Below, piece by piece: positions 1,001 through 58,244 of a DNA stretch of 64,000 nucleotides (positions within the stretch are counted from its first letter, which is position 1; each line of letters opens with the position of its first letter). This stretch comes from Aquilaria yunnanensis (taxonomy: Eukaryota; Streptophyta; Magnoliopsida; Malvales; Thymelaeaceae). Under the pieces are notes generated by a model. The model was not told the origin of the DNA. It did no database searches and saw only the letters and a program-made list of their open reading frames with translations. The stretch is from NCBI GenBank assembly GCA_039654915.1, contig JBDJPA010000013.1:1-64000 (forward strand). Reading direction: 5' to 3'. A program made the position numbers and the translations under genes.

Positions 1001-1007
1001 ATGCTTT

Positions 1008-29795: not shown

Positions 29796-29925
29796 TTTAA
29801 TGAAGGATATTTATTATTTAAAGAATTACTCAATTTATAAAAGAATTAAAAAAATTATTAATTTTTATTTAATAAGAAGTTAATTTAAAGGAATTAAAGA
29901 GTTTAAAAATAAAAATTTTGATCAT

Positions 29926-32248: not shown

Positions 32249-32256
32249 TATTTATA
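32249..32256 (-). promoter_or_regulatory. TATA box of LTR promoter, element C
   Basis: The minus strand reads CTATAAATACCCCCC. It lies about 520 bases into the LTR in sense direction, so it would mark the U3/R boundary with transcription starting near 32220. No equally clear box was found in the LTRs of A or B. Confidence 0.65.
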
Positions 32257-32777
32257 GAAGGAGCTTAGCTGAACTGTGGACGGATAAATTAATAAAAAAT
32301 ATCAAACTTATCTTTTAAATTGGTAAAATGACAGTTTCAGTCCTTTACGTTACTCCAGCTCTGGATAAGCTCAGAAGCTTCTGATTTTGACAATTTTAAC
32401 GTTTTCTGTCAATTTGGGCTAGAAACGTCCGTTTAGGCCCAAAATTGACGCGAAAAATTACCCAAAGCTCCTGAAACTTTCAGAATTTGTCAATTTTGTC
32501 CGAAACTTCTTAATTTTGTCATTTTTACCTCAAACTTTTAATTTTTTTGTCATTTTTTTCTGAAATTTTATTTTTATTCCAAACACATACATATTCGCAC
32601 ATATATTATTTTAAATCAAATCTTCTCAAAATAAAAATATATTTTAAACTAATTAACATAATTAAAATTTTTTAGCAATAATAATAATAATAATAATAAT
32701 TTTTTTAATTAGTTTTTTTTTTTTTTTTTTTTTAAAAATTTTTTAAAAAAAAGGCCGGACGAAATTGGGTGTCAACA

Positions 32778-32793
32778 GCTGCCCCCCTTTGCA
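32778..32793 (-). other. Polypurine tract, element C
   Basis: TGCAAAGGGGGGCAGC on the minus strand immediately precedes the LTR start, identical to that of element A. Confidence 0.85.
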
Positions 32794-32889
32794 TGCTTCA
32801 TGGGACATGATGTATGCAAAGTAGTTACCAAATTTCGTCCGTCTTAGCTAGCCTTTGAGAACCTTCTCGCCGCCTAAACTATGTGGTTA

Positions 32890-34290
32890 AGGAAAATTTT
32901 TTTTAGAGCCTCTCCGATAAGAACTCTCCTATCGTTGAAGGGAAAATTTGATAATTTTGAGGTTAAGGGTCCTACCTTAGAACCTCGACGATAGGAACTC
33001 TCCTATCGTTTGAAGTAAAATTGATTGTTTTGAGGTTAAGGGTCCTACCTTAGAACTTCGACGATAGGAACTCTCCTATCGTTTGAAGGAAAATTGATGA
33101 TTTTGAGGTTAAGGGTCCTACCTTAGAACCTCGACGATAGGAACTCTTCTATCGTTTGAAGTAAAATTGATTGTTTTGAGGTTAAGGGTCCTACCTTAGA
33201 ACCTCGACGATAGGAACTCTCCTATCGTTTGAAGGAAAATTGATGATTTTGAGGTTAAGGGTCCTACCTTAGAACCTCGACGATAGGAACTCTCCTATCG
33301 TTTGAAGGAAAATTGTTTGAATGAGGTTAAGGGTCCTACCTTAGAACCTCGACGATAGGAACTCTCCTATCGTTTGAAGGAAAATTGATGATTTTGAGGT
33401 TAAGGGCCCTACCTTAGAACCTCGACGATAGGAACTCTCCTATCGTTTGAAGGAAAATTGATGATTTTGAGGTTAAGGGCCCTACCTTAGAACCTCGACA
33501 ATAGGAACTCTCCTATCGTTTGAAGGAAAATTGATGATTTTGAGGTTAAGGGCCCTACCTTAGAACCTCGACGATAGGAACTCTCCTATCGTTTGAAGGA
33601 AAATTGATTGTTTTGAGGTTAAGGGTCCTACCTTAGAACCTCGACGATAGGAACTCTCCTATCGTTTGAAGGAAAATTGATGATTTTGAGGTTAAGGGCC
33701 CTACCTTAGAACCTCGACGATAGGAACTCTTCTATCGTTTGAAGGAAAATTGATGATTTTGATGTTAAGGGTCCTACCTTAGAACCTCGACGACAGGAAC
33801 TCTCCTATCGTTTGAAGGAAAATTGTTTGAATGAGGTTAAGGGTCCTACCTTAGAACCTCGACGATAGGAACTCTCCTATCGTTTGAAGGAAAATTGATT
33901 GTTTTTGAGGTTAAGGGTCCTACCTTAGAACCTCGACAATAGGAACTCTCCTATCGTTTGAAGGAAAATTGATGATTTTGAGGTTAAGGGCCCTACCTTA
34001 GAACCTCGACGATAGGAACTCTCCTATCGTTTGAAGGAAAATTGTTTGAATGAGGTTAAGGGTCCTACCTTAGAACCTCGACGATAGGAACTCTCCTATC
34101 GTTTGAAGGAAAATTGATGATTTTGAGGTTAAGGGTCCTACCTTAGAACCTCGACGATAGGAACTCTCCTATCGTTTGAAGTAAAATTGATTGAATGAGG
34201 TTAAGGGTCCTACCTTAGAACCTCGACGATAGGAACTCTCCTATCGTTTGAAGGAAAATTGATGGAATGAGGTTAAGGAAATCTCCTTGA
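32890..34290 (-). repeat. 3' hairpin-repeat array of element C (R1 type only)
   Basis: About 18 R1 monomers of ~73 bp with linker variants (GATGATTTT, GATTGTTTT, TTTGAATGAGG). R2-R4 types are missing. Variants such as GACGACAGG and GACAATAGG recur in fixed order, as in 40285-40770 and 51687-54178, so these arrays share higher-order units. Confidence 0.88.
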
Positions 34291-34814: not shown

Positions 34815-35444
34815 TTATGGGATCGAACTGTTCGGGAAAGACTGTCGCGTCCAGTCTATCTGAATCATTGCTGGATCTGGTTCAGGAACAAAAGCTTGTA
34901 TTTTATCTAGCAATTCTTCAGCAGTTGTTGCGGATATTATGATTCGCCGTGCCACTCTTGATATAAAATTCTTCTGCATAGCATAATCCATAAAAGCTAT
35001 CAGACCTGTAAAGAAATTGTTAACATTTAAAAGCCCAATGGGTTTCTTATGCAAATTAAGTTGGGCCATGGAAGCAATTTGAAAGACTTCTCCCAATGTG
35101 CCAAAACCACCTGGTAGAGCGATAAAAGCATCAGCATTTAAAAGCATTTGTAACACACGCTCTTGTAAATTTTTAACCACTAATTCTTCTCCAATCGTGC
35201 CCCCAGAAATAAATTTCAGAGGTCCAGGGATAATGCCCAGAACTTGACTTCCTCCTAGAGATGCTGCTGATGCTACACCTCCCATTAATCCGACACTACC
35301 TCCTCCATAAACTAAATGTATTTTTCGCTCAGCTAATACTCTACCCAAATGGTTGGCTGCTTTTAAATACTCTTCATCTTTTCCTGGAAAAGCCCCAGAA
35401 AATACACAAATACTTCGGGATTTACGAGTTGGGGTTTTCTCCAT
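34815..35444 (-). CDS. LOG-like cytokinin riboside 5'-monophosphate phosphoribohydrolase (element C)
   Basis: 209-aa protein (MEKTP...). All diagnostic motifs are present: YGGGS 46-50, Arg96, PGGFGTLGE 111-119, KKPIGLLNV. The C-terminus reads SFPNSSIP where A and B' read SFPTSSLP. The open frame upstream to 35504 differs from that of element A because of one extra T, which supports MEKTP as the true start. Identical in protein sequence to the copy in element D (41305-41934). Preceded in sense by three NABP-like genes and followed by the hairpin array. Confidence 0.93.
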   Translation of the reverse strand: MEKTPTRKSRSICVFSGAFPGKDEEYLKAANHLGRVLAERKIHLVYGGGSVGLMGGVASAASLGGSQVLGIIPGPLKFISGGTIGEELVVKNLQERVLQMLLNADAFIALPGGFGTLGEVFQIASMAQLNLHKKPIGLLNVNNFFTGLIAFMDYAMQKNFISRVARRIIISATTAEELLDKIQAFVPEPDPAMIQIDWTRQSFPNSSIP

Positions 35445-36033: not shown

Positions 36034-36598
36034 CTATGAATCGGTGATTTGCATCTCATCTAGCTTTTTCACAAACTGGCAAACAGGGTCGTTTAGGGTC
36101 AGATTCCCAAGACTGTAACGTTCTCGTTCTTTTTGGAGAATTATCCATAATCCAACAACCTCAAATTGCACTATTCCGCAAGAATGCGCTTCAAGAACCT
36201 CTCGGATATCTTCCAGAGATTCCTTACGCAAGCCATTCTTGATGAATTTTATTCTATCATTACGATTTCTGGTGATCACTCCTGGAGAACGACATTTAGT
36301 GCCGCAAATCCACCATCCACAATTATGACAAACGCCTAGCCTCTTTGCTCTTCTTTTTTTTGGCATAAGCGCTTTTTCCAAAGCCAGGCATACGGGGAAA
36401 GAACGCTTCTGGAACTTCACCAGCTGAACGAACCTTAGCTTCAATTAGCCACCGCACATTATCAGGAATGCCTTTGTGCATAAATAGTCGGAATCGTTCA
36501 CATCTAGCTTGATAAACCTTTTTAAGAACATTTATTGGGAAAGAAGGGAAATATTTTCGTAGAGCAGAAAGAGAAGGCTCCATTGATGAAGGAGGCAT
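36034..36598 (-). pseudogene. NABP-like gamma copy with a homopolymer frameshift (element C)
   Basis: Two overlapping minus-strand frames (36598-36323 and 36444-36034) together cover the gamma protein. The shift lies in a run of T (about 36353-36361) inside the codons for the basic run KKRRAK, where intact copies have a shorter run broken by C. Translation from the ATG would lose the zinc finger. Everything else, including the four cysteines (CHNCGWWICGTKC), is unchanged relative to element D apart from few substitutions. TATAAAT at 36692-36698. A sequencing error in the homopolymer cannot be excluded. Confidence 0.85.
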
Positions 36599-36846: not shown

Positions 36847-37394
36847 TCATAAGTCGGGGATTTGCTTCCCATCCAGTTTTCTCACAAACTGGCAAACAGG
36901 GTCATTAAAATCACATTCCCAAGACTGTAACGGTTTCGTTCTTTATGGTAAGTCCTCCATAAACCGATAATTTCACCTTGCACTTTTCCACAAGAATGCG
37001 TTTCAAGAGTCTCTCGGATATCTTTCAGAGACTCCTTACGCAGGCCATTCTTAATGAATTTTCTTTTATCTTCACGATTTATGGAGATGTATCCTAAAGA
37101 GCGACATTTAGTATTACAATTCCATCGCCCACATTTATAACACACGCCTAGTCTCTTTGCTCTTCGCCTTTTGGCATAACGGCTTTTACCTAAACCGGGC
37201 ATGCGGGGCATAAATGCATCTGGAACTTCACCCGCCAAACGGACCTTAGCTTCAATTATCCACTGCACATTGTCGGGAATGCCTTTGCGTGTAAAAACTC
37301 TGATTCTTTCACATCTAGCAAGGTAGATCTTTTTAAGGACTTTTAGTGGGAGGGAAGGAAAGTATTTTCGCAGTACAGAAAGAGTAGAATCCAT
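36847..37394 (-). CDS. NABP-like beta copy with altered C-terminus (element C)
   Basis: Starts MDSTLSVLRKYFPSLPLKVLKKIY. The basic run is KSRYAKRRRAKR and the finger CYKCGRWNCNTKC (cysteines 85, 88, 93, 97). Compared with the intact beta in element D, one base is missing near 36905 (GTCATTAAAA against GTCGTTTAAAA). The last ~20 residues (DPVCQFVRKL...) are therefore replaced and the frame ends at 36882. The basic run and finger are intact, so nucleic-acid binding could survive. The beta type differs from gamma in the finger and in the following YISINREDKRKF block. TATAAAT at 37515-37521 lies about 120 bases upstream. Confidence 0.8.
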
Positions 37395-37683: not shown

Positions 37684-38232
37684 CTATGAGTCGAGGATCT
37701 GCTTCCCATCTAGCTTTCTTACAAGCCGGCAAACAGGGTCGTTTAAAGTCAGATTCCCGAGACTGTAACGGTCTCGTTCTTCATGAAAAATACTCCATAA
37801 ATCAAGAATTTCACGTTGCACAGATCCACAAGAATGCGTCTCAAGAGTCAATTGGATATCATCCAATGAGTCCTTACTCAAGCCATTCTTGATGAACCGT
37901 ATTTTATCTTCTCGATTATTGGAGATCATTCCTAAAGAACGACACCTAGTCTTACAAGTCCACCTACCACATTTATGGCAGACTTGTAATCTTTTCGCTC
38001 TTCTTTTTCTGGCATAAGAACTTTTGCCAACACCAGGCATGTAAGACACAAATGCCTCTGGGATTTCACCTGCCAGACGAACCTTAGCTTCAATTAACCA
38101 CCGCACATCTTCAGGGATTCCTTTATGCATCAGAGCTCTTAATCGTTCACAGCGAACTTGGTAGATCTTTTTTAGGATGTTCATTGGGAGAGAAGGGAAA
38201 TATTTTCGCAAGGCGGAAAAAATAGGATCCAT
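37684..38232 (-). CDS. NABP-like zinc-finger protein, alpha type (element C)
   Basis: Intact 182-aa ORF (MDPIFSALRKYFPSLPMNILKKIY). Basic run KSSYARKRRAKR (70-81), finger CHKCGRWTCKTRC with cysteines 85, 88, 93 and 97, then NNREDKIRFIKNGLSKDSLDDI and HSCGSVQ. It is the first cargo gene in sense order and has no evident TATA box just upstream. The alpha of element D is nearly identical but frameshifted, so this is the best alpha representative of the three-gene cassette. Likely role by analogy: nucleic-acid binding, possibly silencing suppression. Confidence 0.83.
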   Translation of the reverse strand: MDPIFSALRKYFPSLPMNILKKIYQVRCERLRALMHKGIPEDVRWLIEAKVRLAGEIPEAFVSYMPGVGKSSYARKRRAKRLQVCHKCGRWTCKTRCRSLGMISNNREDKIRFIKNGLSKDSLDDIQLTLETHSCGSVQREILDLWSIFHEERDRYSLGNLTLNDPVCRLVRKLDGKQILDS

Positions 38233-40284: not shown

Positions 40285-40790
40285 TGTTCCTATCGTTTGA
40301 AGGAAAATTGATGATTTTGAGGTTAAGGGTCCTACCTTAGAACCTCGACAATAGGAACTCTCCTATCGTTTGAAGGAAAATTGATGATTTTGATGTTAAG
40401 GGTCCTACCTTAGAACCTCGACGACAGGAACTCTCCTATCGTTTGAAGGAAAATTGTTTGAATGAGGTTAAGGGTCCTACCTTAGAACCTCGACGATAGG
40501 AACTCTCCTATCGTTTGAAGGAAAATTGATTGTTTTTGAGGTTAAGGGTCCTACCTTAGAACCTCGACGATAGGAACTCTCCTATCGTTTGAAGGAAAAT
40601 TGATGATTTTGAGGTTAAGGGCCCTACCTTAGAACCTCGACGATAGGAACTCTCCTATCGTTTGAAGGAAAATTGTTTGAATGAGGTTAAGGGTCCTACC
40701 TTAGAACCTCGACGATAGGAACTCTCCTATCGTTTGAAGTAAAATTGATGATTTTGAGGTTAAGGAGCTTTCCTTAGGACCTCGAGCGAA
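40285..40790 (-). repeat. R1 hairpin array of element D (truncated)
   Basis: About seven R1 monomers; the variant order (GACAATAGG, GATGTTAAGG/GACGACAGG, TTTGAATGAGG) resembles 33700-34280. The PPT and 3' LTR that should follow are missing, replaced by the inverted pol piece. Confidence 0.87.
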
Positions 40791-41304
40791 ATTTATATGA
40801 AAGCAATTGAAATTGGAATAATTTTCTTTGAAAGTGTGAATTTTCATAATAGGCGAGCGCAAAGAATTAGGCTTCGATAAAATGAGTGAATCTTGATGAT
40901 GACAATAACACTGACAAATTATGTAAAGGGAACGGATGTTTGGAATCAATATTCAAGGTTCATCTAATATTTTCTTCAGTAAATATAGATTCCCTTGTGA
41001 GATATGTCATCCGAATAAGGTTAAAGCTTAACTACCCCAAAATGTTATGCCTAGTAGACCTAATAGGATGCGTCTCAAGAGTAATAAAAATTACTCTTTA
41101 CTCAGCCATTCCAACCTAAAGGCATTGTCGCATGGTTTTAATATCAGCATGGACGAAACTATCTTATATATAAAAAAAGAAATTCCCTGAAAAGAAAAAC
41201 TGAAACGCGAAAGAAAATGCTGATAATTAAAACTAAAGGACAAGAAAAACGGATCAGATCGCTTCTTTCTTCCACAATACTTCAACAGGGTGAGTAGAGG
41301 ACTA
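40791..41304 (-). other. LOG 3' flank (element D)
   Basis: Conserved counterpart of 17661-18182. No gene; the possible NABP relic is near 41068-41113. Confidence 0.5.
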
Positions 41305-41934
41305 TTATGGGATTGAACTGTTCGGGAAAGACTGTCGCGTCCAGTCTATCTGAATCATTGCTGGATCTGGTTCAGGAACAAAAGCTTGTATTTTATCTAG
41401 CAATTCTTCAGCAGTTGTTGCGGATATTATGATTCGCCGTGCCACTCTTGATATAAAATTCTTCTGCATAGCATAATCCATAAAAGCTATCAGACCTGTA
41501 AAGAAATTGTTAACATTTAAAAGCCCAATGGGTTTCTTATGCAAATTAAGTTGGGCCATGGAAGCAATTTGAAAGACTTCTCCCAATGTGCCAAAACCAC
41601 CTGGTAGAGCGATAAAAGCATCAGCATTTAAAAGCATTTGTAACACACGCTCTTGTAAATTTTTAACCACTAATTCTTCTCCAATCGTGCCCCCAGAAAT
41701 AAATTTCAGAGGTCCAGGGATAATGCCCAGAACTTGACTTCCTCCTAGAGATGCTGCTGATGCTACACCTCCCATTAATCCGACACTACCTCCTCCATAA
41801 ACTAAATGTATTTTTCGCTCAGCTAATACTCTACCCAAATGGTTGGCTGCTTTTAAATACTCTTCATCTTTTCCTGGAAAAGCCCCAGAAAATACACAAA
41901 TACTTCGGGATTTACGAGTTGGGGTTTTCTCCAT
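41305..41934 (-). CDS. LOG-like cytokinin riboside 5'-monophosphate phosphoribohydrolase (element D)
   Basis: 209-aa protein with intact YGGGS, Arg96, PGGFGTLGE and KKPIGLLNV; C-terminus SFPNSSIP. This copy belongs to the only element in the window with pol, and lies about 4.2 kb downstream of the integrase stop in sense direction. That shows LOG is part of the carrier element and not a chance neighbour. TATAAATATA at 41965-41974 is 31 bases upstream of the ATG. Intronless. Family certain from motifs; activity and expression unknown. Confidence 0.93.
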   Translation of the reverse strand: MEKTPTRKSRSICVFSGAFPGKDEEYLKAANHLGRVLAERKIHLVYGGGSVGLMGGVASAASLGGSQVLGIIPGPLKFISGGTIGEELVVKNLQERVLQMLLNADAFIALPGGFGTLGEVFQIASMAQLNLHKKPIGLLNVNNFFTGLIAFMDYAMQKNFISRVARRIIISATTAEELLDKIQAFVPEPDPAMIQIDWTRQSFPNSSIP

Positions 41935-41964
41935 TCCTATCCTTACCCTTGTGAGAAAAGAGGA

Positions 41965-42510
41965 TATATTTATAGAGATGAAGAGATAAGGCAATAATTT
42001 TATTTTTCAAGAATGGATACATTATTGCCAGCTATTCATAGTAGTCACGGGTATGACTCTGGTCAGGTATGGGTACACTATCGTTAAAAGAGGAGGAAAA
42101 TTTTCAAAATAGCTGCTAGCATGTACAGTAGTCGCGACTGTAGCTTATGTCAGGAGTAGGTACATGATTGTCGGATGAGAAGGAAAATTTCAAAAGTGGC
42201 AGGTATATACAGTAGTCATAATTATAGCTCATGTCAGGAGTGGGTACATTATGGGAGGAAAATTTCAAAAGCGTCAGCTAGCATGTACAGTATCGTGACT
42301 ATGGCTTATGTCAAGAGTGGATACATTATTGCTGAAAGAGGAGGAAAATTTCAAAAGCGACAGCTAGCACGTACAGTAATCGTGACTTTGGTTCATGTCA
42401 GGAGTGGATACATTATTATCAAAAGGGGAGGAAAATTTCAAAAGCGACAGCTAGCACGTACAGTAATCGTGACCTTGTTCCGTCTTCTACTGGCTTTGCG
42501 TCCAGTAACG
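41965..42510 (-). promoter_or_regulatory. Putative LOG promoter with TATA and ~80-bp repeats (element D)
   Basis: TATAAATATA at 41965-41974 (minus strand). Five upstream units lie between about 42040 and 42475, nearly identical to element C. Confidence 0.6.
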
Positions 42511-42523
42511 GCTTCAATGCTTT

Positions 42524-43087
42524 CTATGAATCAGTGATTTGCATCTCATCTAGCTTTTTCACAAACTGGCAAACAGGGTCGTTTAGGGTCAGATTCCCAA
42601 GACTGTAACGTTCTCGTTCTTTTTGGAGAATTATCCATAATCCAACAACCTCAAATTGCACTATTCCGCAAGAATGCGCTTCAAGAACCTCTCGGATATC
42701 TTCCAGAGATTCCTTACGCAAGCCATTCTTGATGAATTTTATTCTATCATTACGATTTCTGGTGATCACTCCTGGAGAACGACATTTATTGCCGCAAATC
42801 CACCATCCACAATTGTGACAGACGCCTAGCCTCTTTGCTCTTCTCTTTTTGGCATAAACGCTTTTACCAAAGCCGGGCATACGGGGAAAGAACGCATCTG
42901 GAACTTCACCAGCCGAACGAACTTTAGCTTCGATTAGCCATCGCACATTATCAGGAATGCCTTTGTGCATAAATAGTCGGAATCGTTCACATCTAGCTTG
43001 ATAAACCTTTTTAAGAACATTTATTGGGAAAGAAGGGAAATATTTTCGTAGAGCGGAAAGAGAAGGCTCCATTGATGAATGAGGCAT
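42524..43087 (-). CDS. NABP-like zinc-finger protein, gamma type (element D)
   Basis: Intact 187-aa ORF (MPHSSMEPSLSALRKYFPSF); Met6 aligns with other family starts. Basic run KSVYAKKRRAKR, finger cysteines 90, 93, 98 and 102 (CHNCGWWICGNKC), then ITRNRNDRIKFIKNGL, AHSCG and DPVCQF. Differs from the element A gamma at only a few residues. TATAAAT at 43181-43187 is 94 bases upstream. Last NABP gene before LOG in the three-gene cassette. The resemblance to carlavirus/vitivirus cysteine-rich proteins is by motif layout. Confidence 0.83.
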   Translation of the reverse strand: MPHSSMEPSLSALRKYFPSFPINVLKKVYQARCERFRLFMHKGIPDNVRWLIEAKVRSAGEVPDAFFPRMPGFGKSVYAKKRRAKRLGVCHNCGWWICGNKCRSPGVITRNRNDRIKFIKNGLRKESLEDIREVLEAHSCGIVQFEVVGLWIILQKERERYSLGNLTLNDPVCQFVKKLDEMQITDS

Positions 43088-43336
43088 TTAAGAGAAAAAG
43101 AAAGAAATTAGTGATTGTAGGAAATGGAAATAACTGAATTTGGGAGTTATGGAGTACCGTATCCAGAAGGAAGAACACGCATTTATAGTGATGAAAGGAT
43201 AATGCGTTTATTACACTTACGGAAGTAAGTACATTATTGCCAAAAGAAAAGACAAATGACAGCTTATATGTACAGCAATCATGACTGTGGCTCTCATCTT
43301 CCACTAATTCATGTCCAGTAATGGCTTCAATGCCTT
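43088..43336 (-). promoter_or_regulatory. Spacer with TATA box upstream of NABP gamma (element D)
   Basis: TATAAAT at 43181-43187 (minus strand). A TATGTACAGCAATCATGACTG-type block lies near 43267-43290. Confidence 0.5.
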
Positions 43337-43885
43337 CTATAAGTCGGGGATTTGCTTCCCATCTAGTTTTCTTACAAACTGACAAACGGGGTCGTTTAAA
43401 ATCACATTCCCAAGACTGTAACGGTTTCGTTCTTTATGGTAAGTCCTCCATAAACCGATAATTTCACCTTGCACTTTTCCACAAGAATGCGTTTCAAGAG
43501 TCTCTCGGATATCTTTCAGAGACTCCTTACGCAGGCCATTCTTAATGAATTTTCTTTTATCTTCACGATTTATGGAGATGTATCCTAAAGAGCGACATTT
43601 AGTATTACAATTCCATCGCCCACATTTATAACACACGCCTAGTCTCTTTGCTCTTCGCCTTTTGGCATAACGGCTTTTACCTAAACCGGGCATGCGGGGC
43701 ATAAATGCATCTGGAACTTCACCCGCCAAACGGACCTTAGCTTCAATTATCCACTGCACATTGTCGGGAATGCCTTTGCGTGTAAAAACTCTGATTCTTT
43801 CACATCTAGCAAGGTAGATCTTTTTAAGGACTTTTAGTGGGAGGGAAGGAAAGTATTTTCGCAGTACAGAAAGAGTAGAATCCAT
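43337..43885 (-). CDS. NABP-like zinc-finger protein, beta type (element D)
   Basis: Intact 182-aa ORF (MDSTLSVLRKYFPSLPLKVLKKIY). Beta marks: FTRKGIPDNVQWIIEAK, a strongly basic run KSRYAKRRRAKR (70-81), finger CYKCGRWNCNTKC (85, 88, 93, 97), YISINREDKRKF, and the ending KLDGKQIPDL. Middle gene of the alpha-beta-gamma series. TATAAAT at 44006-44012 lies about 120 bases upstream. It is the only full-length pure beta gene in the window and the best reference for the mosaic gene of elements B and B'. Function is inferred only from the viral-type motif. Confidence 0.83.
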   Translation of the reverse strand: MDSTLSVLRKYFPSLPLKVLKKIYLARCERIRVFTRKGIPDNVQWIIEAKVRLAGEVPDAFMPRMPGLGKSRYAKRRRAKRLGVCYKCGRWNCNTKCRSLGYISINREDKRKFIKNGLRKESLKDIRETLETHSCGKVQGEIIGLWRTYHKERNRYSLGNVILNDPVCQFVRKLDGKQIPDL

Positions 43886-44174
43886 TGATGAGAGAAGAAT
43901 TTGAGAGAAGAGGGAAATGAATCAGTTATTGCAGGAAACTGGAATAATCGACTTTAGAAGTCACGGGGTATCTTATCTGTTGTTTAATCAGAAGGAAGAA
44001 CACGCATTTATAGTGATGAAAAGGGATAACGTGTCGATTACACTTAGGGGAGCATGTACATCTGTCAAAAGAAAATGCAAATTTTTCCAAATATAACAAA
44101 CTGTATGTACAGTAATTGTGACTGTGGCTCACATCTTCCACTGGTTTTACGTCCAGTAACGGCATTAACGGCTT
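43886..44174 (-). promoter_or_regulatory. Spacer with TATA box upstream of NABP beta (element D)
   Basis: TATAAAT at 44006-44012 (minus strand), with a CATGTAC...CAGTAATTGTGAC block at 44053-44123 and the ACTGG...CCAGT dyad after alpha. Confidence 0.5.
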
Positions 44175-44724
44175 CTATGAGTCGAGGATCTGCTTCCCAT
44201 CCAGCTTTCTTACAAGCCGGCAAACAGGGTCGTTTAAAGTCAGATTCCCGGGACTGTAACGGTCTCGTTCTTCATGAAAAATACTCCATAAATCAAGAAT
44301 TTCACGTTGCACAGATCCACAAGAATGCGTCTCAAGAGTCAATTGGATATCATCCAATGAGTCCTTACTCAAGCCATTCTTGATGAACCGTATTTTATCT
44401 TCTCGATTATTGGAGATCATTCCTAAAGAACGACACCTAGTCTTACAAGTCCACCTACCACATTTATGGCAGACTTGTAATCTTTTCGCTCTTCTTTTTC
44501 TGGCATAAGAACTTTTGCCAACACCAGGCATGTAAGACACAAATGCCTCTGGGATTTCGCCTGCCAGACGAACCTTAGCTTCAATTAACCACCGCACATC
44601 TTCAGGGATTCCTTTATGCATCAGAGCTCTTAATCGTTCACAGCGAACTCGGTAGATCTTTTTTTAGGATGTTCATTGGGAGAGAAGGGAAATACTTTCG
44701 CAAGGCAGAAAAAGTAGGATCCAT
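44175..44724 (-). pseudogene. NABP-like alpha copy with N-terminal frameshift (element D)
   Basis: The start (44722-44724, MDPT) and the 148 codons from 44621 to 44175 are intact. A run of seven T at 44659-44665, where element C has six, shifts the frame after about residue 19. An internal Met at codon 35 (MHKGIPEDV) could restart and would keep the basic run and finger. All other alpha features are as in element C. The extra base lies in a homopolymer and may be a read error. Confidence 0.82.
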
Positions 44725-46090
44725 TTTCTAGGAGGAAGTAAAAGAAAGAAGGGGTGAAGGTATCAGTTATTATGGGCAACTGAGAGAACCGACTTGAGAG
44801 TCACGGAGTACCGTATCCGCCGTTTAACCGGAAAAGTGGATTCTGCTTTATTTTAGTATCATAGATATTTCTTATCTTTGATATCTCATCAGGCATGACA
44901 TTGATCCAGTCCTTGATTATTGAATCCATTGTCTGCTTTGGACGACAATATTTCTCGATATCCGCACTTATCTTTGACCATAGTTATTTCTTATCTTGGA
45001 TACCGCTAAGCTGGCGTCAATTCTGTCCATCCCGGTGTAGCCTCGATTATTGAATTGATTACCAGGATTTTGACAATATTGTCTACTTTATCCTTGAATT
45101 GCTGATGGGGCTGGGTCCACTATATCAGCTGTGCATCCAGCGGTAGATTGGTAAAAACGGATGTCACTGAGACGTCAGCTTATACTGCTGTGACTGTGCG
45201 GTGGATACGCTTCCCATTTGATCCTTGTTCTGTATGCCATGCATGCATGATGTGAAATGCATGAATGCAGAGCATGTGTAACTGATGGATTTATTTTTTA
45301 TATCTTTGCTTTACTGGATCCTCTTTGTAATTGCCTTCTATCGTTGAATCTCTTTATGCTTTCCAACTGTTGTCCATTGTTTCACTTTCCAGCTGTTGTT
45401 CATTGTCTTGCTTTCCAGCTGTTGTTCATTGTCTCGCTTTCCAGCTATTGTCCATTGTCTCAAAAGCCTAACTCTTTTCAAAAATCTTCTTTCCTTGATT
45501 TGTTCTTAAATTTTGGCTTCAATTTCCTTAATGTCCGCCTCGTACTTTATGCCTCCCTGGATAATTGTCCCTGTTGAGATATTCGTGAGTATGATTCTTT
45601 CTTGCTGACATGGACGTGTTAAGACTTCTGAAGCGATCATTCAGGCTACCACCAAGGCTATCTCCCAAAGATTTGTTACTCCTTCTTCTTTGTTAGCCTA
45701 TGTTCTGTGCCGCTCGCAAAACAGGACCTCAATCTTACCTGTTTTAATTCATAAAGCTTATCAAAGTAATCTACGGTCTTTCTTTTTTCTAAGTTTTAAT
45801 TATTACTATTCTTCCTTCAAAAGTCACAATTTATTGCACACTTAAGGCTAGTAGGAATGTGAGATTCGAAGGAAAAGAACTGGATAGAAGCGACTTTAGC
45901 ATTTTGAACGTGAGAATCTAAGGTAAGTTAAAGAGAATTGGCTTTTATTTATGGGTAAAAGAATATGAAAATCTTGGGTACAGATAGATAATGAAAGTGT
46001 AAGGGAAGAAAGCTCTCTTTGATAACTTTGATCAAATAAACTTTGGTAACCCTGTATCCACTTCTCCCCTTCTGTTCGAAAATTTCTTCA
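44725..46090 (-). other. Region between integrase and NABP alpha (element D)
   Basis: About 1.4 kb without a gene, holding the ~140-bp repeats (44860-45110), short CTTTCCAGCTGTTGTTCATTG repeats (45360-45460) and AT-rich DNA. It links the integrase stop (46091) to the first cargo gene, so it probably holds the alpha promoter. Confidence 0.6.
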
Positions 46091-49000
46091 TTATGCAAAG
46101 TATTTCTTTACTGCATCCGAATTTACTGGCTTCGGTAATTCTCGTCCATCCATTTCTGTCAGAATTAGTGCCCCTCCTGAAAATGCTTTCTTCACGACAT
46201 ATGGCCCGTCATAATTTGGTGTCCATTTTCCTCTTGAATCATGTTGCATGGGTAAAATTTTCTTGAGCACTATGTCACCTTCGTGAAATTGTCGTGGGCG
46301 AACCTTTTTGTTGTAAGCACGAATCATCCTTCTTTGATAAAGTTGCCCATGGCAGAGGGCTATCATTCTTCTTTCATCAATTAGATTTAATTGCTCGTAT
46401 CTAGCTTTGACCCATTCTGCTTCTCCTAATTGAGTATCCATTAGTACCCTTAATGAAGGAATTTCAACTTCGATAGGCAATACAGCCTCCATACCGTATA
46501 CCAGAGAAAAAGGTGTTGCTCCAGTAGAAGTACGGGTAGAAGTTCTATAAGCATGCAGTGCAAAAGGTAACATCTCATGCCAGTCCTTGTAAGTGACGAT
46601 CATCTTTTCAACAATTCTCTTGATATTTTTATTGGCCGCTTCTACTGCACCATTCATCATCGGTCGATAAGGTGCTGAATTGAGATGCTTGATTTTGAAT
46701 TGCCGGCACAAAGTCTGCATCATTGCATTATTCAGGTTCGTGGCATTGTCTGAGATGATACACTCTGGCGGTCCATAGCGACAAATGATTTCTTTCTTAA
46801 TGAACCGGCATACCACCTTTTGAGTTACGCTTGCATAAGACACAGCTTCTACCCATTTAGTAAAGTAGTCAATTGCAACTAGGATGAATTTGTGACCATT
46901 GGAAGCTTTAGGGGTAATCGCTCCAATAACATCGATTCCCCACATGGCAAAAGGCCAAGGTATTGCTGTTACATTAAGAGGAACAGGTGGAGCTTGGATC
47001 TTGTTGGCATATATTTGGCATTTGTGACATTTTCTTACGTGATTGACGCAATCACTTTCCAATGTGAGCCAATAGTAACCAGCCCTCATTATTTGTCTTG
47101 CCATAGTATGACCACTAGTGTGTGCTCCACATATTCCAGAATGAACTTCTTCCATGATCTTTCGTGCTTCATGAGTATCTACACAGCGAAGTAGCATCGA
47201 GTCTGGGGTTTTCTTGTAAAGTATGTCTAGGTTTAAAAGAAAACCCATTGACAATCTTCGTAGAAATTTCTTGTCATTTTCTGATACTTCTGGTGGATAT
47301 ACTCTTTCTTGGAGGTATTTCTTGATATCGTGATACCAAGGCTTTCCATCCAATTCTTCTTCGATGCTCATGCAATAAGCTGGAGAATCTATTATTCTCA
47401 TCTCGAATATAGGAGTATGCTCGGGGTCACTGATCTTGTACATAACAGCCAAAGTAGCTAAAGCATCCGGTATTTGATTATCTTCCCTTGGAAGATGATG
47501 GAAGCTTATACTGTTGAATTTTCGAGCCAAGTTTAGTATGAGCTTTTGGTAAGGGATCAATTTTGAATCTCTTGTCTCCCATTCTCCATTGATTTGATAT
47601 ATGACTAATGCGGAATCCCCATAGACTCGGAGATCTCGCACTTTCAAATCCAATGCCATTTGGAGTCCCATAGCACATGCTTCATACTCTACTATATTGT
47701 TGGTACAAGGAAATGTAATTTTTGCTGTGAGGGGAAACTGCTCTCCGCTTGGAGAGATGAGTATAGCTCCGATCCCTTGTCCCAAAGCATTAGATGCTCC
47801 ATCGAATGCCATTTTCCATGTTTCATTTTCTTCATCGACTTCCTGTTCTATCGTCATTATATCTCCATCAGGAAAGTCCATTCTCATGGGCCCATAATCC
47901 TCTAATGCTCTATCAGCCAGATATTCAGCGATCACACTTCCTTTTACGGCCTTTTGGGTGACATACTGTATGTCGTATTCAGATAACAGCATTTGCCATT
48001 TTGCAATCCTGCCTGATAAAGCGGGTTTCTCGAAAATGTACTTAATGGGGTCAGTCTTGGAGATCAGTAATGTTGTGTTGTTGAGCATGTAGTGTCGTAG
48101 TCGATGTGCTACCCATGCAAGGGCACAACAGGACTTTTCTACTATTGAGTATTTAGCTTCATATGTGGTAAGCTTTTTGCTCAAATAGTAAATTGCATGC
48201 TCCTTCTTGCTTGTCTCATCACGTTGACCCAATACGGATCCTAATGAAGAATCCTGTATGGATAAATATAGAATCAACGGTTCTCCGGATCGAGGTGGTA
48301 TCAAGACTGGTGGATTTGATAGATATCGTTTGATTTTCTCGAACGCTTCTTGGCATTCGTTATTCCACTCAATCGGATTGTTCTTCTTTAGTGATTTGAA
48401 AAGCGGTTCACACTTGGACGTCAATTGTGATATGAACCTTGCTATGAAGTTGATTCTACCCAGAAAACTTCTTACTTGTTTTGGAGTCTTCGGGGGTTGC
48501 ATTTCTTGTATCGCTTTGACTTTACTCGGGTCAACTCGAATCCCGTCCTTGCTGACTATGAAACCCAATAACTTTCCTGAGGAGGCTCCAAAAGTACATT
48601 TGGCAGGATTCAACTTCAATTGATATTTGCAAAGTCTATCGAATAGTTTTCTTAGCACTTTTAGATGCCCCCCAGCAGTGAAAGTTTTGGCGATCATGTC
48701 GTCCACATATACTTCAATTTCTTTATGCATCATGTCATGGAACAACGTGACCATGGCTCTTTGATATGTAGCACCAGCATTCTTTAACCCGAAAGGCATC
48801 ACCTTATAGTAGAAGGTACCCCAAAGGGTAATAAAAGCAGTTTTTATCATGTCATCTGGATCAAGTTTGATTTGATTGTATCCAGAAAAACCATCCATGA
48901 AGGAAAAGTAGGAGTTTCCTGCGGTATTATCCACCAGTGTATCAATATGAGGAAGTGGGAAGTTATCTTTAGGACTGGCTTCGTTCAAAGGCCGGTAGTC

Positions 49001-49520
49001 CTGACAAACTCTTAGTTTCCCACTTTCTTTCTTTTCGACTGGGACAATGTTAACCACCCATTCTGTATATTCAGCGACCCCAAGAAATCCTGCATCCCAC
49101 AGCTTTCGAATCTCGTCTTTTACTCTTAAGATTAACTCCGGCTTTAATCTTCGTAACTTCTGTCTGACAGGCTTCGCCCCAGGCTTCAAAGGTATTTTGT
49201 GTAGTACTATGTCTGAGCTTAAGCCGGGCATATCTTGGTATGACCAAGCGAATACATCCACATATTCTTTCAATAAATGGACTAATTCTTCTTTTTCTTC
49301 AGGAGGGAATAAAGTGCCAATCTTGACTTCTTTTACATCCTGACTGTCTCCTAGGTTGAATACCTCAGTTGGTTCTTGACTTGTTGCTCTTTCTTTTTCA
49401 TCTTGCTCAATCATTTTTAATAGCTCAGGAGATACTTGAAGATCTTCGTCGTCCGAGTCGGTAGTGTTTACAGGATTATCAAAGTTCATTCTTTCATTGT
49501 CATCAAAGAGAGTTTTGGGT
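46091..49520 (-). CDS. Retrotransposon pol exon: RT, RNase H, second RNase H, integrase (element D)
   Basis: Uninterrupted frame. Counted from the internal Met at 49489: RT with VCQDYRPLN (161-169), FMDGFSGYNQ and YVDD (261-264); a degenerate Ty3-type RNase H (about 400-510); a second, archaeal-type RNase H with D563, E603, D625 and D675; integrase HHCC finger (about 772-824) and core D853, D914, E950 with 35 residues between the last two. The tandem RNase H domains mark the Tat/Ogre branch. No chromodomain. The frame is open upstream of the Met to the 3' splice site at 49521 and joins the protease exon in frame. Reverse-transcribes and integrates the element. All catalytic residues are present, so the loss of activity seems due to the broken 5' part. 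Confidence 0.95.
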
Positions 49521-49719
49521 CTGCATTATCCAGAGAGAAAAGAAAGAGAAGAGAAAAAAAATGGCACGAATGAGATGGATGCAAACTGGTACTTTATTTA
49601 CAATGTGCATAAATCACAATTTTATTGGAATAAAAAGCAATAACTAAAAGGTTCACTTAAACAAAGACTACACCCTATTGATTGAACCTTTCTTTAGGAG
49701 GTTTTTACTATTAGATTAC
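49521..49719 (-). other. Gag-pol intron (199 bp, GT-AG) between protease and RT
   Basis: The donor CAAA/GTAATC overlaps the stop of the protease frame. The acceptor is a long pyrimidine tract ending TAATGCAG. Splicing joins ...ESFPK directly to PKTLFDDNERMNF... without a frame change. Ogre elements are known for an intron at just this place, removed from only part of the transcripts. Unspliced RNA gives Gag-Pro alone; spliced RNA gives Gag-Pro-Pol. Confidence 0.85.
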
Positions 49720-51640
49720 TTTGGAAAGCTTTCGATTATAACAGGCAGTTCTATCGCCTCCCAATTGTTCAGCACATCCCGTGGGCCACAAGGTTGAATG
49801 AGCTCCTCCTCTTCAGGTGAATCGCTGATGATTGCCTGAATAGAAAGACTTTCAAAAGACTTGTTGATGTTGATAGTCAGCTTGCCTTCATTGTCATTTT
49901 TCGGAATGAGACCACCACTCACGAACGTTTCGGTGATTTCAGGGATATCCAGATTTCTTTCCTGGAGAGGATGCCCTGTTAATCGTGCAATCCTCTTTTC
50001 TCTCTTTTCAGCTATTGCCTTCATTTTATCATGTCTTGTCGGTGTGAAGCCTAGGCCGTATTTCCCTTCATTTGCGGATATTTTCAATGGCTCTGGGATT
50101 CCTTGTAAATCTTGTCCCAAACCTAACCCTGGTGAGTATCCTTCTTTTATCATGAGTTTGGCGACCATGCGACTTGTTTTAGAGATGTTAGGAACGGGTT
50201 CTTCTCCATATTCACTGACATAAGCAGCATTGACAATCTCAAAAGACCTGAAGGAGCAATCAGGTATATTTTCATTGACCTCAACATATTGAGCATCCGC
50301 AGGTCTAGATAGCAGAATGTCTTCTTCAGCAAAGACTGTGATTATCTTTCCTTCAATGATGAATTTCATTTTTTGATGTAATGAGGAAGGAATTGCTCCA
50401 GCCATATGGATCCATGGTCTTCCCAGCAGACAAGTATAAGATGGAGAAATGTCCATGACTTGGAATGTGATATGGAAAAGACAGGGACCAATCCCAATTG
50501 GTAGCTCTATTTCTCCAACCACATCTCTCTTTGTTCCGTCAAATGCTCGAACAACAATATGACTGTTGTTGAGGTGTGATGGGTCTAAACCGATCTTATG
50601 TAAAGTTTCTAATGGCATTACATTTAGAGCTGATCCATTGTCGATCAGAACTCTAGCCATAATCCGATCTTTGTATTTAATCGAAATATGTAGAGCCTTA
50701 GAGTGACCCCTTCCTTCTGCTGGTATCTCATCGTCAGTGAATGTGATGAGATTTTGTGCCGTGATGTTGTTGACAAGGTGGTCAAAGTTGTTCACGGAGA
50801 TATCTTGTTCAACATAAGCCTTATTCAGGACTTTGAGAAGAGCTTCTCGATGGGCATCAGAACTTAAGAGTAATGAAAGTATGGAGATCTTTGCTGGCAG
50901 ACGGTTCAACTGCTCCACGATACTGTATTCACTTTGCTTTATGAGTTTGAGAAACTCAGTAGCTTGTTCATCTGTTACTGCTCGAGGCATCTCTTGCTCT
51001 TTAGATGTGTTAATAGGTCCATTTGCTGGATCCGTAACATTCTTCTCTTGTTGGAGCTTGTTCATTTGCTCGGGAGAATAACACCGACCGCTTCTAGTCA
51101 TGCCCCCAACTTCTAACGGAGTTGATGTGATGTTAGAAGTATAGCCATAGTTCCATGGAACAGTTTTGTCTGATTTGTATGGGAATGGCTTTGGAACTTG
51201 AATTCTTAAAGGCTTGAGAGCAGATTTTGAGATTGGAATGACTAGTGGCCTTGGCATGATATTGACTTCTTGTTCTTTAATTATCACATTCACGTCATCC
51301 TCTTTATCTGACATAAAAACGATGATTTGGGAGGAGTCCATGAGACTTTGTAGACTTTTACGGAATTCTGGGCATTCTTGGATAGAATGATTCTTACTGT
51401 TATGAAAGTTGCACCATTCCTCATGCTCGACTTCTTTATTTCCAGAAGACTTTCCTGTGATAATCCCTTCTTTCACAAGGCATGAATATACATGCTTAAG
51501 AGGGGTTATGATATCATTGACTGTTTTCTTCATCGGCCAGTATTCTTCCATCATATTGACTGGTTTGGCTTGATGAGGAGGCAATGGATTATGAGTGACG
51601 TTTGGTTCATCGGAAGTTCCACGATTTGGGTACCGTTTAA
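49720..51640 (-). CDS. Gag C-terminus, protease and G-patch exon (element D), 5' truncated
   Basis: Open over more than 622 codons; the frame continues upstream without an ATG to a TGA near 51640. Numbered from codon 51584: a degenerate zinc-knuckle-like CNFHNSKNHSIQEC (58-71), a retropepsin with LIDNGSALNVMP (Asp315; DNG instead of the usual DTG/DSG) and the flap-side LLGRPWIH, and a G-patch (about 470-513, GYSPGLGLGQDLQG...GLGF), a domain known in this retroelement branch. The capsid part of Gag, leader, PBS and 5' LTR are missing: at 51687 the sequence turns into hairpin repeats. The product would be incomplete, so element D now needs Gag from elsewhere. Confidence 0.88.
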
Positions 51641-54183: not shown

Positions 54184-57100
54184 TTTGGAGTCGCCACCAA
54201 TCAGTTTACTTAGGTCGATTGGTCACCTTAAAATTGGTCTGCGAGAGTTCGGGGATCGGGAGTACGGTTACGTTAAAACAACTTTGTTAAAACGCCCAAA
54301 AATTGGCACCTTAGTTGATTTTAATTTTGTTTTGCTTTGCTTTTAAATAATTCTCAGTTAATTTTCAAAATTAGAAATTTTAACTGGATTAGTCGAAATG
54401 TGGATTTTTAAATTAATTAATTTGTATGAAATTTTATACTTCCGAACCATGGACTCTGCCGAGTCATTTGGACACGGAAGATTTTTGATTCCGAACCATG
54501 GACTCTGCCGAGTCATTTGGACACGGAATTTGGTGAACTTTTAAATAATTTAATCCATATTGTAAATATGGATTTTTATCTTTATATTTATTTAATTTAT
54601 TTAGTTAAAAAAAGGTTGATATTTTCCAAACCGTAGATCCTGACGGATCATCCGGATATAGAAGTTAATTTAATTTATAGTTAATTATTTAATTATTATT
54701 TTATGGAATTAATTATTAGTTTAACTTATAATTTAAAAGTTTTTTTTATTTTATGAAATTTTGGATTTTTGTTAATGATCTAAATTTTTTATTCTTTTTA
54801 TATTTTTACTTCTTTTCTTTTTTTTTTTTTTCTTTATTTCCTTTATTTTTTTTTTCTTTTAGTTTTCTTTTTGGTTTTAATGAAAGATATTTGTAAATAA
54901 TTACTCAATTTATACAAAACCCAAAAATTAATTTTTATTATTTAATATCAAAATTCTTTATTTAATAAGGAAATTAAAGAGTTTAAAAAATCATGACATT
55001 TATTTTATGTTTATTCTATTTAAAGAAATTAATCAAGGTTTTATTAAAAAAAGATTTATATTTTATGTTATGTTTATTCTTTTTATTTGATAGAAGATAA
55101 ACCAAAAAGGAATTACTTAATCAAGGTTTTATTTATTTAATGAAGAAAACTAAAGATTTATATATTTATTTTAAAATAAAAGTAAAGTCTTAATATTTGA
55201 TTTGTTTTATTTTTGATAAAAAAATTAACCAAAAGTGATTATTTAATAAAGAAACTAAAAAATTTATATGTATATTTGAAACAAAAAGAAAAGTTTTGAT
55301 ATTTATATAATTTATTTTTATGTTCTTTTTGTTTGATAAAAGATTTTTTTTTAATTTATAAGTCTAAAAATACATCTAATTAATAAGTCTAAAATATTTA
55401 AGAGAAATTTAATTCTTTTTTTATTTATTTTATTTTTGAAATCATTTGGCTTAGATTTTTATTTATTCAATAAAGGAATTAAAAATTTATATTTTAGTTT
55501 AAAAGAAATAAGTAAAATACAAAGTCTTAATTTTCATGTATTTCTTTTAATTTTTTATTATTTTTACTGAATTAAAGTAACTATTAAAATTAATTTTATA
55601 TTTTATATTTTTAAAAATATTTTTTATTCTCCAAACCATTGGATCCTGGCGGATCATTTGGATATGGAGTTTAATTTTTATTAAATTTTATTTTAGTTAT
55701 TAAATTAATTATTAAATGGCATATACAAACTGAATTTTTCTAAGTATGATTTTTTTTATTACGTCAAAACTAATTTTAGATTAATTATTAAAAATAAGTT
55801 TGTCTAATCTAATCATATAATTATGCTTGACATTAATTTCTAAACTAATTCATAACTTTAATAATCCAAACAAAACTAAAAAAAGTAAAACAATGGCTAA
55901 TTTGTAAATCAGAACAATATTAGAGTCTCAAATATACAAATCACATAAGACCAGGGGCAAATTATGTATTAAAAATATTTATCTAACCAAATCATACGAT
56001 TATGCTTAGTAATAATTCTTTAAGTTTATTCATGCTCTTAATTAAATGAACAAACAAAGACATAAAAGAGAATAAACATTAATGGCCAAATTGCAATTCA
56101 AAACAACCTTAAAGTCTCAGACGAACAAATCAAATAAATCCGAAGATAAATTATCTATTAAAATTACCTATCTAACCTAATCATATAATTAAGTTTAATG
56201 ACAATTTCTAAGTTAGTTTATGCGTTTAATCATTTGAACAAATAAAACACAAAATAAAGAACATAAGTAAATCAGAGATCAAGTTGTAAATCAAAACAAA
56301 CTTAAAGTTTCAAATGAGCAAATCAGATAAATCCGAAGACAAATTATTTATTTAAATTATTTATATAAGCTAATCATATAGTTAAACTTAATGTTAATTG
56401 CTAAGTGAATTTTACACCTTTAATTAACTGAATAAACAAAAACATAAAAAGGAAAATAAACATCAGTGACTAAATTGTAAGTCAAAACAAACTTAAAGTC
56501 TCAGATAAATCAAATAAATCTAGGGATTTAACTAGGATTAAGCCAAAATTATAGACTTTCGGGTCAGATTCGGATCAACAACAGATCGATTTGCGAGCTG
56601 GGTTTCATTATTTAATTTTAATTTTTGTTTACTTTAAACAATTTTAAATAAAATCCAAACCATAGATTCTAACCGAATCATCTGGATATGGATTTTATAA
56701 CTTACTATTATCCTAAGTTCGTTTATGAGTCTTATTAAATCCACGTGAAATAAATTCTTTTTAGATGCATCGCGAATAATAAATGAACTATCCCAAAATT
56801 AAATATATAAAAATAAAATAGACATAAAAATAAATAAAAATTCCAGATTATACTCATACATGGATTTTATGGCTAAATTTAATGGATGGCCAAAATAGAC
56901 AGATAAACGAAAGAAAATAAAAAAAAGAACAATAAAAGCTTGCTGTTAATGCTCAATCTGCAAAGAAAATAAAGTTAGTGACTTAAATGGATAAAATAAA
57001 AAGAATTAAGGGCTAAATATGAATTTTACCCAAAAACAAATAACTTTGACTTGGTCAAAAAATGAAAACGCGTCTGTTTTACGTTTTCAATCTTTTATTT

Positions 57101-58144
57101 CTTTCTTCCGGCGTCTATACGGCGGCGGTGGAGGGCTGAGTGGTGGAGGCTTGGACGCGCTGCGCCAGGAGGGAGGAGTGAGATGTGGACGGCGGAGTGA
57201 AGCGGAGGCGTAGCTAGCAGGCGTCCAGCGTCGGCCGTAGGCAGCGAGGCGCGGCCACTGTGGCGAGCTCGGTCGCGACGCGGCAGTTAGCAAGGGAGCG
57301 ACGCGGAGAGAGAAGGAGGGAGGCGACGCCGGCAGGGGCAGGAGGGAGGCGACGCCGGCAGAGGCAGGAGGGCGTGGAATCGAGATGGCAGTGGGGCAAG
57401 GGAAGAGAGCAGAGAAATGAAGGAGAGAAGCGGGGAGAGAGAGGGAAGAGAAGAGAGAGATAAGGTGTGCTGAGCGTGAGAGAAGGAGAGCTGTTGCGAG
57501 AGCGAGAGAGAGTGAGAGAGAAACAGAGAGGGAGAAGGAGAGTGTACTGGGAGAGCTTAGAGGAGGGAGAAGTCTGTAGTTGGTGTTGTGAGTAGGGAGA
57601 TGATGGTTTTTTCGGGAGAGGAGCAAGAGAGAGAGAGTAGAAGAGAGAGTCTGTAGGAAGAGCTGGTCGAGAGATCTCAGAGCCGGAGAGCAAGCTGAGA
57701 GAGTTTTTGAGCCAAAGAGAGAGAGCGTAGAAGCTGTGTGTGTTCTCCGTGATGGGAGAGAAAAGATAGATTAAAAAAAAGAGGGCAAGAGAAGATAAGG
57801 GATAAGGGGAGGGGGAGCCTCTGTCGGCCACCCTCCCCATTTTTTATTATTATTTTTGTTTTTTCTTCTTCTTCTTTTTAATTAATTAATTAATTAATAA
57901 TTTTTAATTTTAATTAATTTAGATTTAATTTATTATTATTATTTTTTTCTTCTTCTTCCCTTTTTTTTTTAACATACAAACTAAAAAAGAATGCCCCTAA
58001 AATAATATTGCCATTATTACTATTATTATTTTTAATTAAGTAATCAATTAATTAAGTAATTCAATAATTTTTTTTTTTAAGTTTTAATTTTTAATTTTAA
58101 TTAATTTTTTTTATTTTTAAGCCGGACGAAATTGGGTGTCAACA
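54184..58144 (-). mobile_element. 3' LTR of element B' (about 3.96 kb)
   Basis: Nearly identical to 7816-11794 (offset 46349-46350; differences are a few homopolymer indels). The outer terminus (GGCAACGTCGGG part) is lost at the array junction. The inner boundary TGTTGACACCC (58144) and PPT are intact. Hairpin motifs lie near 54438-54660, 55630 and 56655; the GC/GA-rich island is at 57110-57820. The spliced-looking ORFs in the island are low-complexity. Confidence 0.86.
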
Positions 58145-58160
58145 GCTGCCCCCCTTTGCA
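58145..58160 (-). other. Polypurine tract, element B'
   Basis: TGCAAAGGGGGGCAGC on the minus strand next to the LTR start, the same as in A and C. Confidence 0.85.
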
Positions 58161-58244
58161 TGCTTCATGGGACATGATGTATGCAAAGTAATTACCGAAT
58201 TTCGTCCAGCTTAGCTAGGCATTGAGAACCTTCTCGCCGCCTAA

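Follow-up and report, generated by a model that had tools for sequence, protein, structure and literature searches.

A probable Ogre/Tat-type LTR retrotransposon family of Aquilaria yunnanensis with an internal cassette of NABP and LOG genes

The window analyzed here, a 64,000-nucleotide stretch of contig JBDJPA010000013.1 of Aquilaria yunnanensis, is plant DNA by its gene content and consists mostly of minus-strand copies of one long terminal repeat (LTR) retrotransposon family, which we call A to E. We read this family, with moderate confidence, as one of Ogre/Tat type that carries an internal cassette of NABP (nucleic-acid-binding protein) and LOG genes upstream of its polypurine tract (PPT), the encoded proteins likely acting on the host cell. 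Both kinds of gene are under purifying selection.

All named genes of copy D were found to form one sense series on the minus strand between positions 40285 and 51640, open reading frame (ORF) order and Pfam matches being in agreement. This confirms an earlier note on the same DNA, which had described such a series from a partial gag to a hairpin array, with both RNaseHs in pol. The Pfam domains of D pol follow the order RVT_1, RT_RNaseH (residues 403-505), RVT_3 (570-680), H2C2 and rve (846-943). D pol therefore has a second RNaseH between the first one and the integrase, the arrangement of Ogre/Retand-type Tat elements (PMC6317226; here and below, statements on published work refer to the accessible parts of the papers cited); the Athila trait, absence of a second RNaseH, was not seen. 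The top pol matches were plant gypsy proteins with the identical domain set, and the best named relatives include Durio, Theobroma, Hibiscus, Malania, Cicer and Vigna. Upstream, the G-patch was matched with a Pfam E of 8e-8, and the protease match was weak (17.7 bits, under the Pfam cut-off of 24.3). Ogre elements have a primer binding site (PBS) for tRNA-Arg and an intron between gag-pro and pol (PMC9289625). The intron proposed earlier for D is kept here as putative: gag-pro and pol lie in separate frames and a pyrimidine tract with an acceptor-like AG ends at 49521, whereas no donor turned up in a simple pattern search (GT, A/G, A/T/G, G) that reached upstream as far as 49830. D is a fragment, its gag ending near 51640 where an array adjoins it (51640-51689), and the joining of an Ogre-type pol to the cassette was seen once, in D, within a single assembled and rearranged region.

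The three NABPs which the note had assigned to D all scored above the Pfam cut-offs for Viral_NABP (26.6-32.7 bits; cut-off 23) and Carla_C4 (21.9-27.6 bits; cut-off 20.9); beta and gamma are open, whereas alpha is frameshifted. Over the whole window, eight of 12 NABP gene copies are open. Among 80 aligned members of the family, 75 match Viral_NABP and 74 Carla_C4 (E 0.01), with an additional weak SHQ1 match in four, and a CX2CX4CX3C motif occurs in 105 of the 120 database matches listed; in NABP this motif stands beside a basic stretch. A profile search of the PDB with NABP returned a single match, a ribosomal protein (E 0.75). NABP is predicted to bind nucleic acid, and it may act as a silencing suppressor or transcription factor.

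Downstream of the NABPs, the D LOG matches PF03641 (E 1.6e-30, 106.4 bits; cut-off 27) and TIGR00730 (149.2 bits; cut-off 96.35) and aligns with Arabidopsis At2g37210 over 199 residues (E 8e-52). It retains the PGGxGTxxE motif and the conserved catalytic arginine, and the gene is open in all four full copies (B, C, D and E). The enzyme is predicted to release active cytokinin. As a separate observation, an LxLxL sequence, often after a basic stretch, occurs within the last 14 residues in 99 of the 120 LOG matches listed and is lacking in the window LOGs; this tail resembles an EAR repression motif.

The boundaries of the other copies place the cassette within LTR elements (Table 1). In B, C and E it is followed by a PPT and an LTR start, and in A and B a PBS precedes it. 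LTR starts read TGTTGACACCC with AAAGGGGGGCAGC before them, the minus-strand TG being at 58144, 32777 and 14474, and AAAGGGGGGCAGC followed by TGTTGACACCCAATT was found at these three places; the 5' LTR of A has the same start at 11794, where the purine tract is absent. LTRs end in GTTGCCACAGCT or GTTGCCATAGCT, directly followed by TGGCGACTCC(A/G)CTGGGGA at 7812 (A) and 26113 (B), a PBS that was found by a motif search; nothing in the window was matched in scans for Rfam families and tRNAs. In B, two LTRs, a PBS and a PPT enclose the cassette, the 5' LTR being about 0.6 kb short and pro-pol absent. The LTR pair of B shows 1917 matches, no mismatch and one gap, from which we infer a recent insertion. 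A, which has no pro-pol between PBS and NABP, is a 5' part at the left window edge, and E is a 3' part at the right edge; the 5' LTR of A and the 3' LTR of E differ by one mismatch in 3961 bases, with 23 gap columns. The gag-like target that holds the A 5' LTR matches D (11798-11873 with 50886-50961) at 96%. A purine run at 46073-46061 with TG to 46051, just after the D pol, was considered as an LTR start that would put the cassette inside the LTR, and was rejected; in B, C and E the AAAGGGGGGCAGC-preceded LTR starts lie past the arrays. The cassette is therefore internal, in the order pol or leader, NABPs, LOG, arrays, PPT and LTR.

These boundaries bear out the view that LTR elements inherit the cargo as one of their internal components, since it has its PPT and LTR context in B, C and E with three LTR kinds (about 2.5 kb in B, 3.9 kb in C and 4.0 kb in A/E). 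They also place it within an LTR pair, that of B; the A 5' LTR sits in its gag-like target, and the C 3' LTR adjoins an array. Two further statements of the note were only partly upheld. The cargo order said to recur in A, B, B' and C does so as NABP then LOG, but with two NABPs and not three in A, B and E; the cargo said to lie between the pol position and the PPT does precede the PPT and LTR start in B, C and E, and in A and B gag is broken and pro-pol missing.

Selection on the cassette was examined by placing the observed substitutions at random in 5000 draws. The B and E LOGs differ at 26 of 627 nucleotides and at one amino acid, D-E at 29 and three, and C-E at 30 and three; within the other copies the nucleotide and amino-acid differences are 8 and 2 (B-C), 7 and 2 (B-D) and 1 and 0 (C-D). 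Random placement gave on average 16.5 amino-acid changes for B-E and 18.8 for D-E, and none of the 5000 draws was as low as observed. Similarly, the first NABP of A and the alpha of C (A1-Ca) differ by 43 nucleotides and 15 amino acids (random mean 29.0; 0/5000), and the second NABP of A and the beta of D (A2-Db) by 76 and 37 (random mean 49.8; 0/5000). The LOG dN/dS is 0.01 (B-E) and 0.03 (C-E and D-E), with dS of 0.19-0.21 and dN of 0.002-0.006 against E, and in pairs with E the non-coding sequence next to LOG is 88.7-94% alike. For NABP, dN/dS is 0.13-0.36 in the 25 of 28 comparisons that yield a ratio (14 of them different, the A and E copies being identical), the other three being two identical pairs and one without synonymous change. 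The gag remnants of A and B, used as a control, show 10 differences distributed 6/2/2 by codon position, with no third-position excess and with stops in common.

Table 1. Features of copies A to E in the window (minus strand indicated by -)
Feature	Position	Strand	Remarks
D gag C-terminus / protease-like / G-patch	49716..51584	-	622-aa open frame; N-terminal gag missing
D pol, RT-RNaseH-second RNaseH (RVT_3)-integrase	46091..49489	-	1132 aa
D NABP-alpha	44175..44724	-	frameshifted near N-terminus; acceptor-like CTAG just 5' of ATG
D NABP-beta	43337..43885	-	open, 182 aa; TATAAATGCG at 44012-44003
D NABP-gamma	42524..43087	-	open, 187 aa; TATAAATGCG at 43187-43178
D LOG	41305..41934	-	open, 209 aa from the ATG aligning with other LOGs; TATAAATATA at 41974-41965
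D 73-bp tandem array	40288..40785	-	cut at 40288
C NABP-alpha	37684..38232	-	open
C NABP-beta	36850..37394	-	frameshift near C-terminus
C NABP-gamma	36037..36598	-	frameshifted
C LOG	34815..35444	-	open
C array and PPT	32781..34278	-	73-bp array 32903-34278; PPT AAAGGGGGGC 32790-32781
C 3' LTR	28904..32777	-	about 3.9 kb, TGTTGACACC...TTGCCACA; adjoins array piece at 28900
B 5' LTR	26117..28035	-	first ~0.6 kb missing
B primer binding site	26096..26113	-	TGGCGACTCCACTGGGGA
B broken gag remnant	24288..24892	-	stops in common with A
B NABP-alpha	20146..20691	-	one premature stop
B NABP-gamma	19317..19880	-	open
B LOG	18183..18812	-	open
B arrays and PPT	14478..17627	-	arrays 14596-17627; PPT AAAGGGGGGC 14487-14478
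B 3' LTR	11964..14474	-	about 2.5 kb
A 5' LTR	7816..11794	-	about 4.0 kb; inside gag-like target
A primer binding site	7795..7812	-	TGGCGACTCCGCTGGGGA
A broken gag remnant	5977..6580	-	stops in common with B
A first NABP	1805..2353	-	open
A second NABP	1008..1556	-	open
A LOG	1..506	-	open as far as window edge
E first NABP	62820..63368	-	open
E second NABP	62023..62571	-	open
E LOG	60892..61521	-	open
E arrays and PPT	58148..60328	-	arrays 58266-60328; PPT AAAGGGGGGC 58157-58148
E 3' LTR	54187..58144	-	about 4.0 kb; last stretch missing where array joins

Relatives of the cassette were sought in protein and contig databases. The NABP protein search gave 146 relatives, of which the best 120 were listed; named ones among these come from Xanthoceras, Acer, Rhamnella and Orobanche. 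One Rhamnella protein (P0094) contains NABP followed by LOG (PF03641, 57.7 bits), and in P0082 (Rhamnella) and P0114 (Orobanche) the stretches before NABP, which have no Pfam match, read like an integrase C-terminus and a protease. Two NABP/LOG pairs, P0009/P0138 and P0010/P0170, have longest contigs of equal size (8723 and 4511), which hints at linkage without proving it. A scan of genome contigs for NABP cassette loci yielded one locus, L001 (DAIEQH010000041.1), where within 3330 bp an integrase (rve, H2C2) is followed by a 186-aa NABP 192 bases past its stop. L001 matches D pol residues 463-549 and 694-1131 on adjoining DNA, with no match for residues 550-693, the second RNaseH; since this domain is unmatched we take the locus to be Athila-like. 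The LOG- or YgdH-bearing elements of Citrus and Populus have reportedly also been called Athila-like. L001 is filed in a metagenome-assembled genome of Candidatus Nomurabacteria though its content is plant-like, and its presence there is likely a contamination. Viral contigs scanned with NABP, the NABP alignment, pol and two LOGs gave no relative.

The LOG search returned 7700 relatives among 7999 scored; named ones among the best 120, which were listed, come from Xanthoceras, Reevesia (many loci), Paulownia, Diplodiscus, Populus and Parasponia. The LOG tree was built from 51 rows (45 of the 120 listed matches, the LOG part of P0094, three window LOGs and two Arabidopsis LOGs as root), and in it the window LOGs and P0121 form a group with a long branch; because the tree is rooted on the only two host LOGs that it includes, it does not show a single capture. 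In the midpoint-rooted NABP tree (64 of the 120 listed matches and six window rows, no virus NABP), P0001, P0002 and P0071 cluster with the window NABPs (support 98), and the tandem copies therefore arose within this lineage.

The elements share several features with known systems. The second RNaseH, separate gag-pro and pol frames, G-patch and LTRs of 2.5-4.0 kb are as in Ogre/Retand elements (PMC6317226, PMC9289625), and tandem arrays before the 3' LTR are as in Retand, which has antisense ORFs and arrays between pol and the 3' LTR (PMC11963269). What sets the window elements apart from Ogre/Retand is the NABP-LOG cassette, which lies on the sense strand after pol and before the PPT. Extra ORFs in plant elements are treated in PMC7264820, and YgdH/LOG domains in LTR retrotransposons of Citrus and Populus, together with G-patches in gypsy elements, in PMC9289625, which credits Steinbauerova et al. 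2011 for YgdH. Those Citrus and Populus elements likewise have a LOG-type gene as extra cargo; as described in the accessible text of PMC9289625 they come with no mention of NABP, and the window elements differ from them in a pol with a second RNaseH and in the selection shown for LOG. Ogre-related elements of orchids carry a 2-ODD gene, an RNA demethylase (PMC9289625); they too are of Tat/Ogre type with an extra gene that possibly counters host surveillance, though the captured genes differ. The window NABPs resemble those of carlaviruses and other flexiviruses, such as p12 of chrysanthemum virus B, an NABP relative that is both transcription activator and silencing suppressor (PMC7588395), in their Pfam scores above cut-off, zinc-finger-like cysteines, basic stretch and weak fold matches; they differ in being plant-genomic, retrotransposon-encoded and tandem, with a longer N-terminus. 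Extra ORFs in Ty3/gypsy elements and LOG cargo were thus known before. The note had held the capture of a hormone-activating enzyme together with virus-type NABP genes to be undescribed; the enzyme part of this is not new in itself, LOG-type (YgdH) domains in LTR elements being already in PMC9289625. A search of the accessible literature, mostly without subscription papers and supplementary files, found no report of an NABP in a retrotransposon; among the papers listed, one on Eucalyptus LTR elements (PMC4535378) contains the words retrotransposon, nucleic acid-binding and Athila. What appears to be new, within the literature searched, is NABP as cargo, its union with LOG in one cassette, the location of that cassette next to an Ogre-type pol, and the selection that it is under.

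Candidate expression signals were found upstream of the cassette genes. TATAAATATA lies 40 nt upstream of the LOG ATG in all four copies, and TATAAATGC(A/G) 87-127 nt upstream of all seven beta/gamma-type rows (those of A and E being identical), against a TATAWA background of 0.22 per 300 bases in the D region. None of the five alpha rows has a TATA-like site within 300 nt upstream; all five have CTTCCTCCTAG or CTTTCCTCTAG directly before AAAATGG, which is splice-acceptor-like. A bacterial promoter scan, a method not meant for plants, was at chance level. Beta, gamma and LOG are accordingly placed under predicted TATA-like promoters of their own, from which they would be transcribed, and alpha would be expressed via the acceptor just before its ATG. 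As nucleic-acid binders, the NABPs would weaken silencing or activate host genes; LOG would release active cytokinin, so that cells with an active element keep dividing. The element would benefit in that a larger number of its new insertions enter the germ line. NABP and LOG may work as a pair, one against silencing and the other for proliferation. Where pro-pol is missing, a copy would use proteins made by autonomous relatives.

Several observations weigh against this account of an Ogre/Tat-type family with a host-directed cassette. No complete autonomous copy (gag-pol, cassette and both LTRs) was found in the window, and no LTR of D within its 64 kb; C is without pol and has an inverted piece in its place; in B, no match to pro or pol was found between PBS and NABP, and the truncated 5' LTR prevents a check for a target-site duplication. 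B is also a mosaic: of 17 windows between gamma and the LOG flank, 13 are at least 97% like D and a few are nearer E, and the 5' part of B is 88-100% like A; the B-E LOG differences therefore largely repeat those between the D and E lineages, and no claim of selection after the loss of pol is made. As the copies are related, the TATA-like sites amount to about two independent ones. Expression and function of the cassette are predictions from sequence. Of the 12 NABP copies, four (B alpha, C beta, C gamma and D alpha) are broken or cut short. The NABP fold model is weak (mean pLDDT 64.7, pTM 0.33), and of its 43 matches in BFVD, the best at E 0.032, none reached 0.001; in favour of the account, six of the seven best are labelled RNA silencing suppressor and one 15kDa protein, all of which we take to be flexivirus proteins. 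In the window LOG the residue after the conserved arginine is valine, where the two Arabidopsis LOGs have lysine, and the score for the NCBIfam equivalog NF058542 is 98.3 bits, below its cut-off of 300 (a bacterial/archaeal model, run without a plant LOG control).

An unlikely though serious alternative is that the cassette serves the element itself, NABP being a nucleocapsid- or Rev-like helper of RNA packaging or export and LOG a hitch-hiker of little use. The cysteine motif beside a basic stretch would suit such a helper, and the extra ORFs of Retand have been proposed as regulators (PMC11963269). However, LOG is the more constrained of the two genes (dN/dS 0.01-0.03 as compared to 0.13-0.36), the opposite of what a hitch-hiker would show. 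We consider it very improbable that the genes are decaying passengers, acquired in a single capture and at present subject to drift; the four broken NABP copies would fit, but LOG is open in four of four copies, amino-acid differences fall far under random in each of the four comparisons made, and the gag remnants of A and B show no third-position excess. Least probable of all is a host or viral locus around or into which elements inserted by chance, for although the region is heavily rearranged and the D gag and arrays end at breakpoints, the cassette precedes PPT and LTR start in three copies with three LTR kinds, follows a PBS in A and B, and has a relative elsewhere (L001) behind an integrase.

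A broader reading of the host-directed cassette, tentative but quite possible, is that NABP-LOG is an old, self-contained host-reprogramming module common to Athila- and Ogre/Tat-type elements across eudicots and kept even without gag and pol, and that it shares one gene pool with the flexivirus silencing suppressor, a gene that retrotransposons may have given to plant RNA viruses or taken from them. The host-directed cassette itself would mean that plant retrotransposons hold, under selection, a toolkit of two parts: one otherwise known from RNA viruses (silencing suppression and the activation of host genes), the other from hormone biology (the release of cytokinin). Two questions become open to test, namely whether an increase in cytokinin is a means by which transposable elements reach the germ line, and where the flexivirus NABP gene originated. 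Some annotated plant LOG/LOGL genes, among them many Reevesia loci and Populus LOGL10, may be element genes.

The tandem arrays (14596-17627, 32903-34278, 51689-54172 and 58266-60328) have units of 73, 86, 140 and 47 bp. The 73-bp unit contains the hairpin-forming CGATAGGA...TCCTATCG, and a 221-nt array stretch gave a folding z of -3.66. The D 3' array is interrupted at 40288 by a piece of pol (39513-40290), an inverted copy (99.4%) of the 5' pol at 48739-49516 that joins the cut array to the post-pol region of C. The three LTR kinds (7816-11794, 11964-14474 and 28904-32777) have their first bases and last ~490 bp in common and differ in the middle, where internal repeats occur and the sequence is in places very rich in AT (GC as low as 19% in 2-kb windows). 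Window positions 1-2985 are identical to 61016-64000 (2985 bp; period 61015 bp), which could stem from a tandem duplication of large size, from the presence of two nearly identical elements, or from a wrap-around in the assembly. A truncated, frameshifted LOG piece lies at 28182-28675, between an array piece and the B 5' LTR. At 11867-12012, beside the end of the B 3' LTR, an LTR end with a PBS fragment stands head to head in inverted orientation, as after an aberrant integration or template switch.

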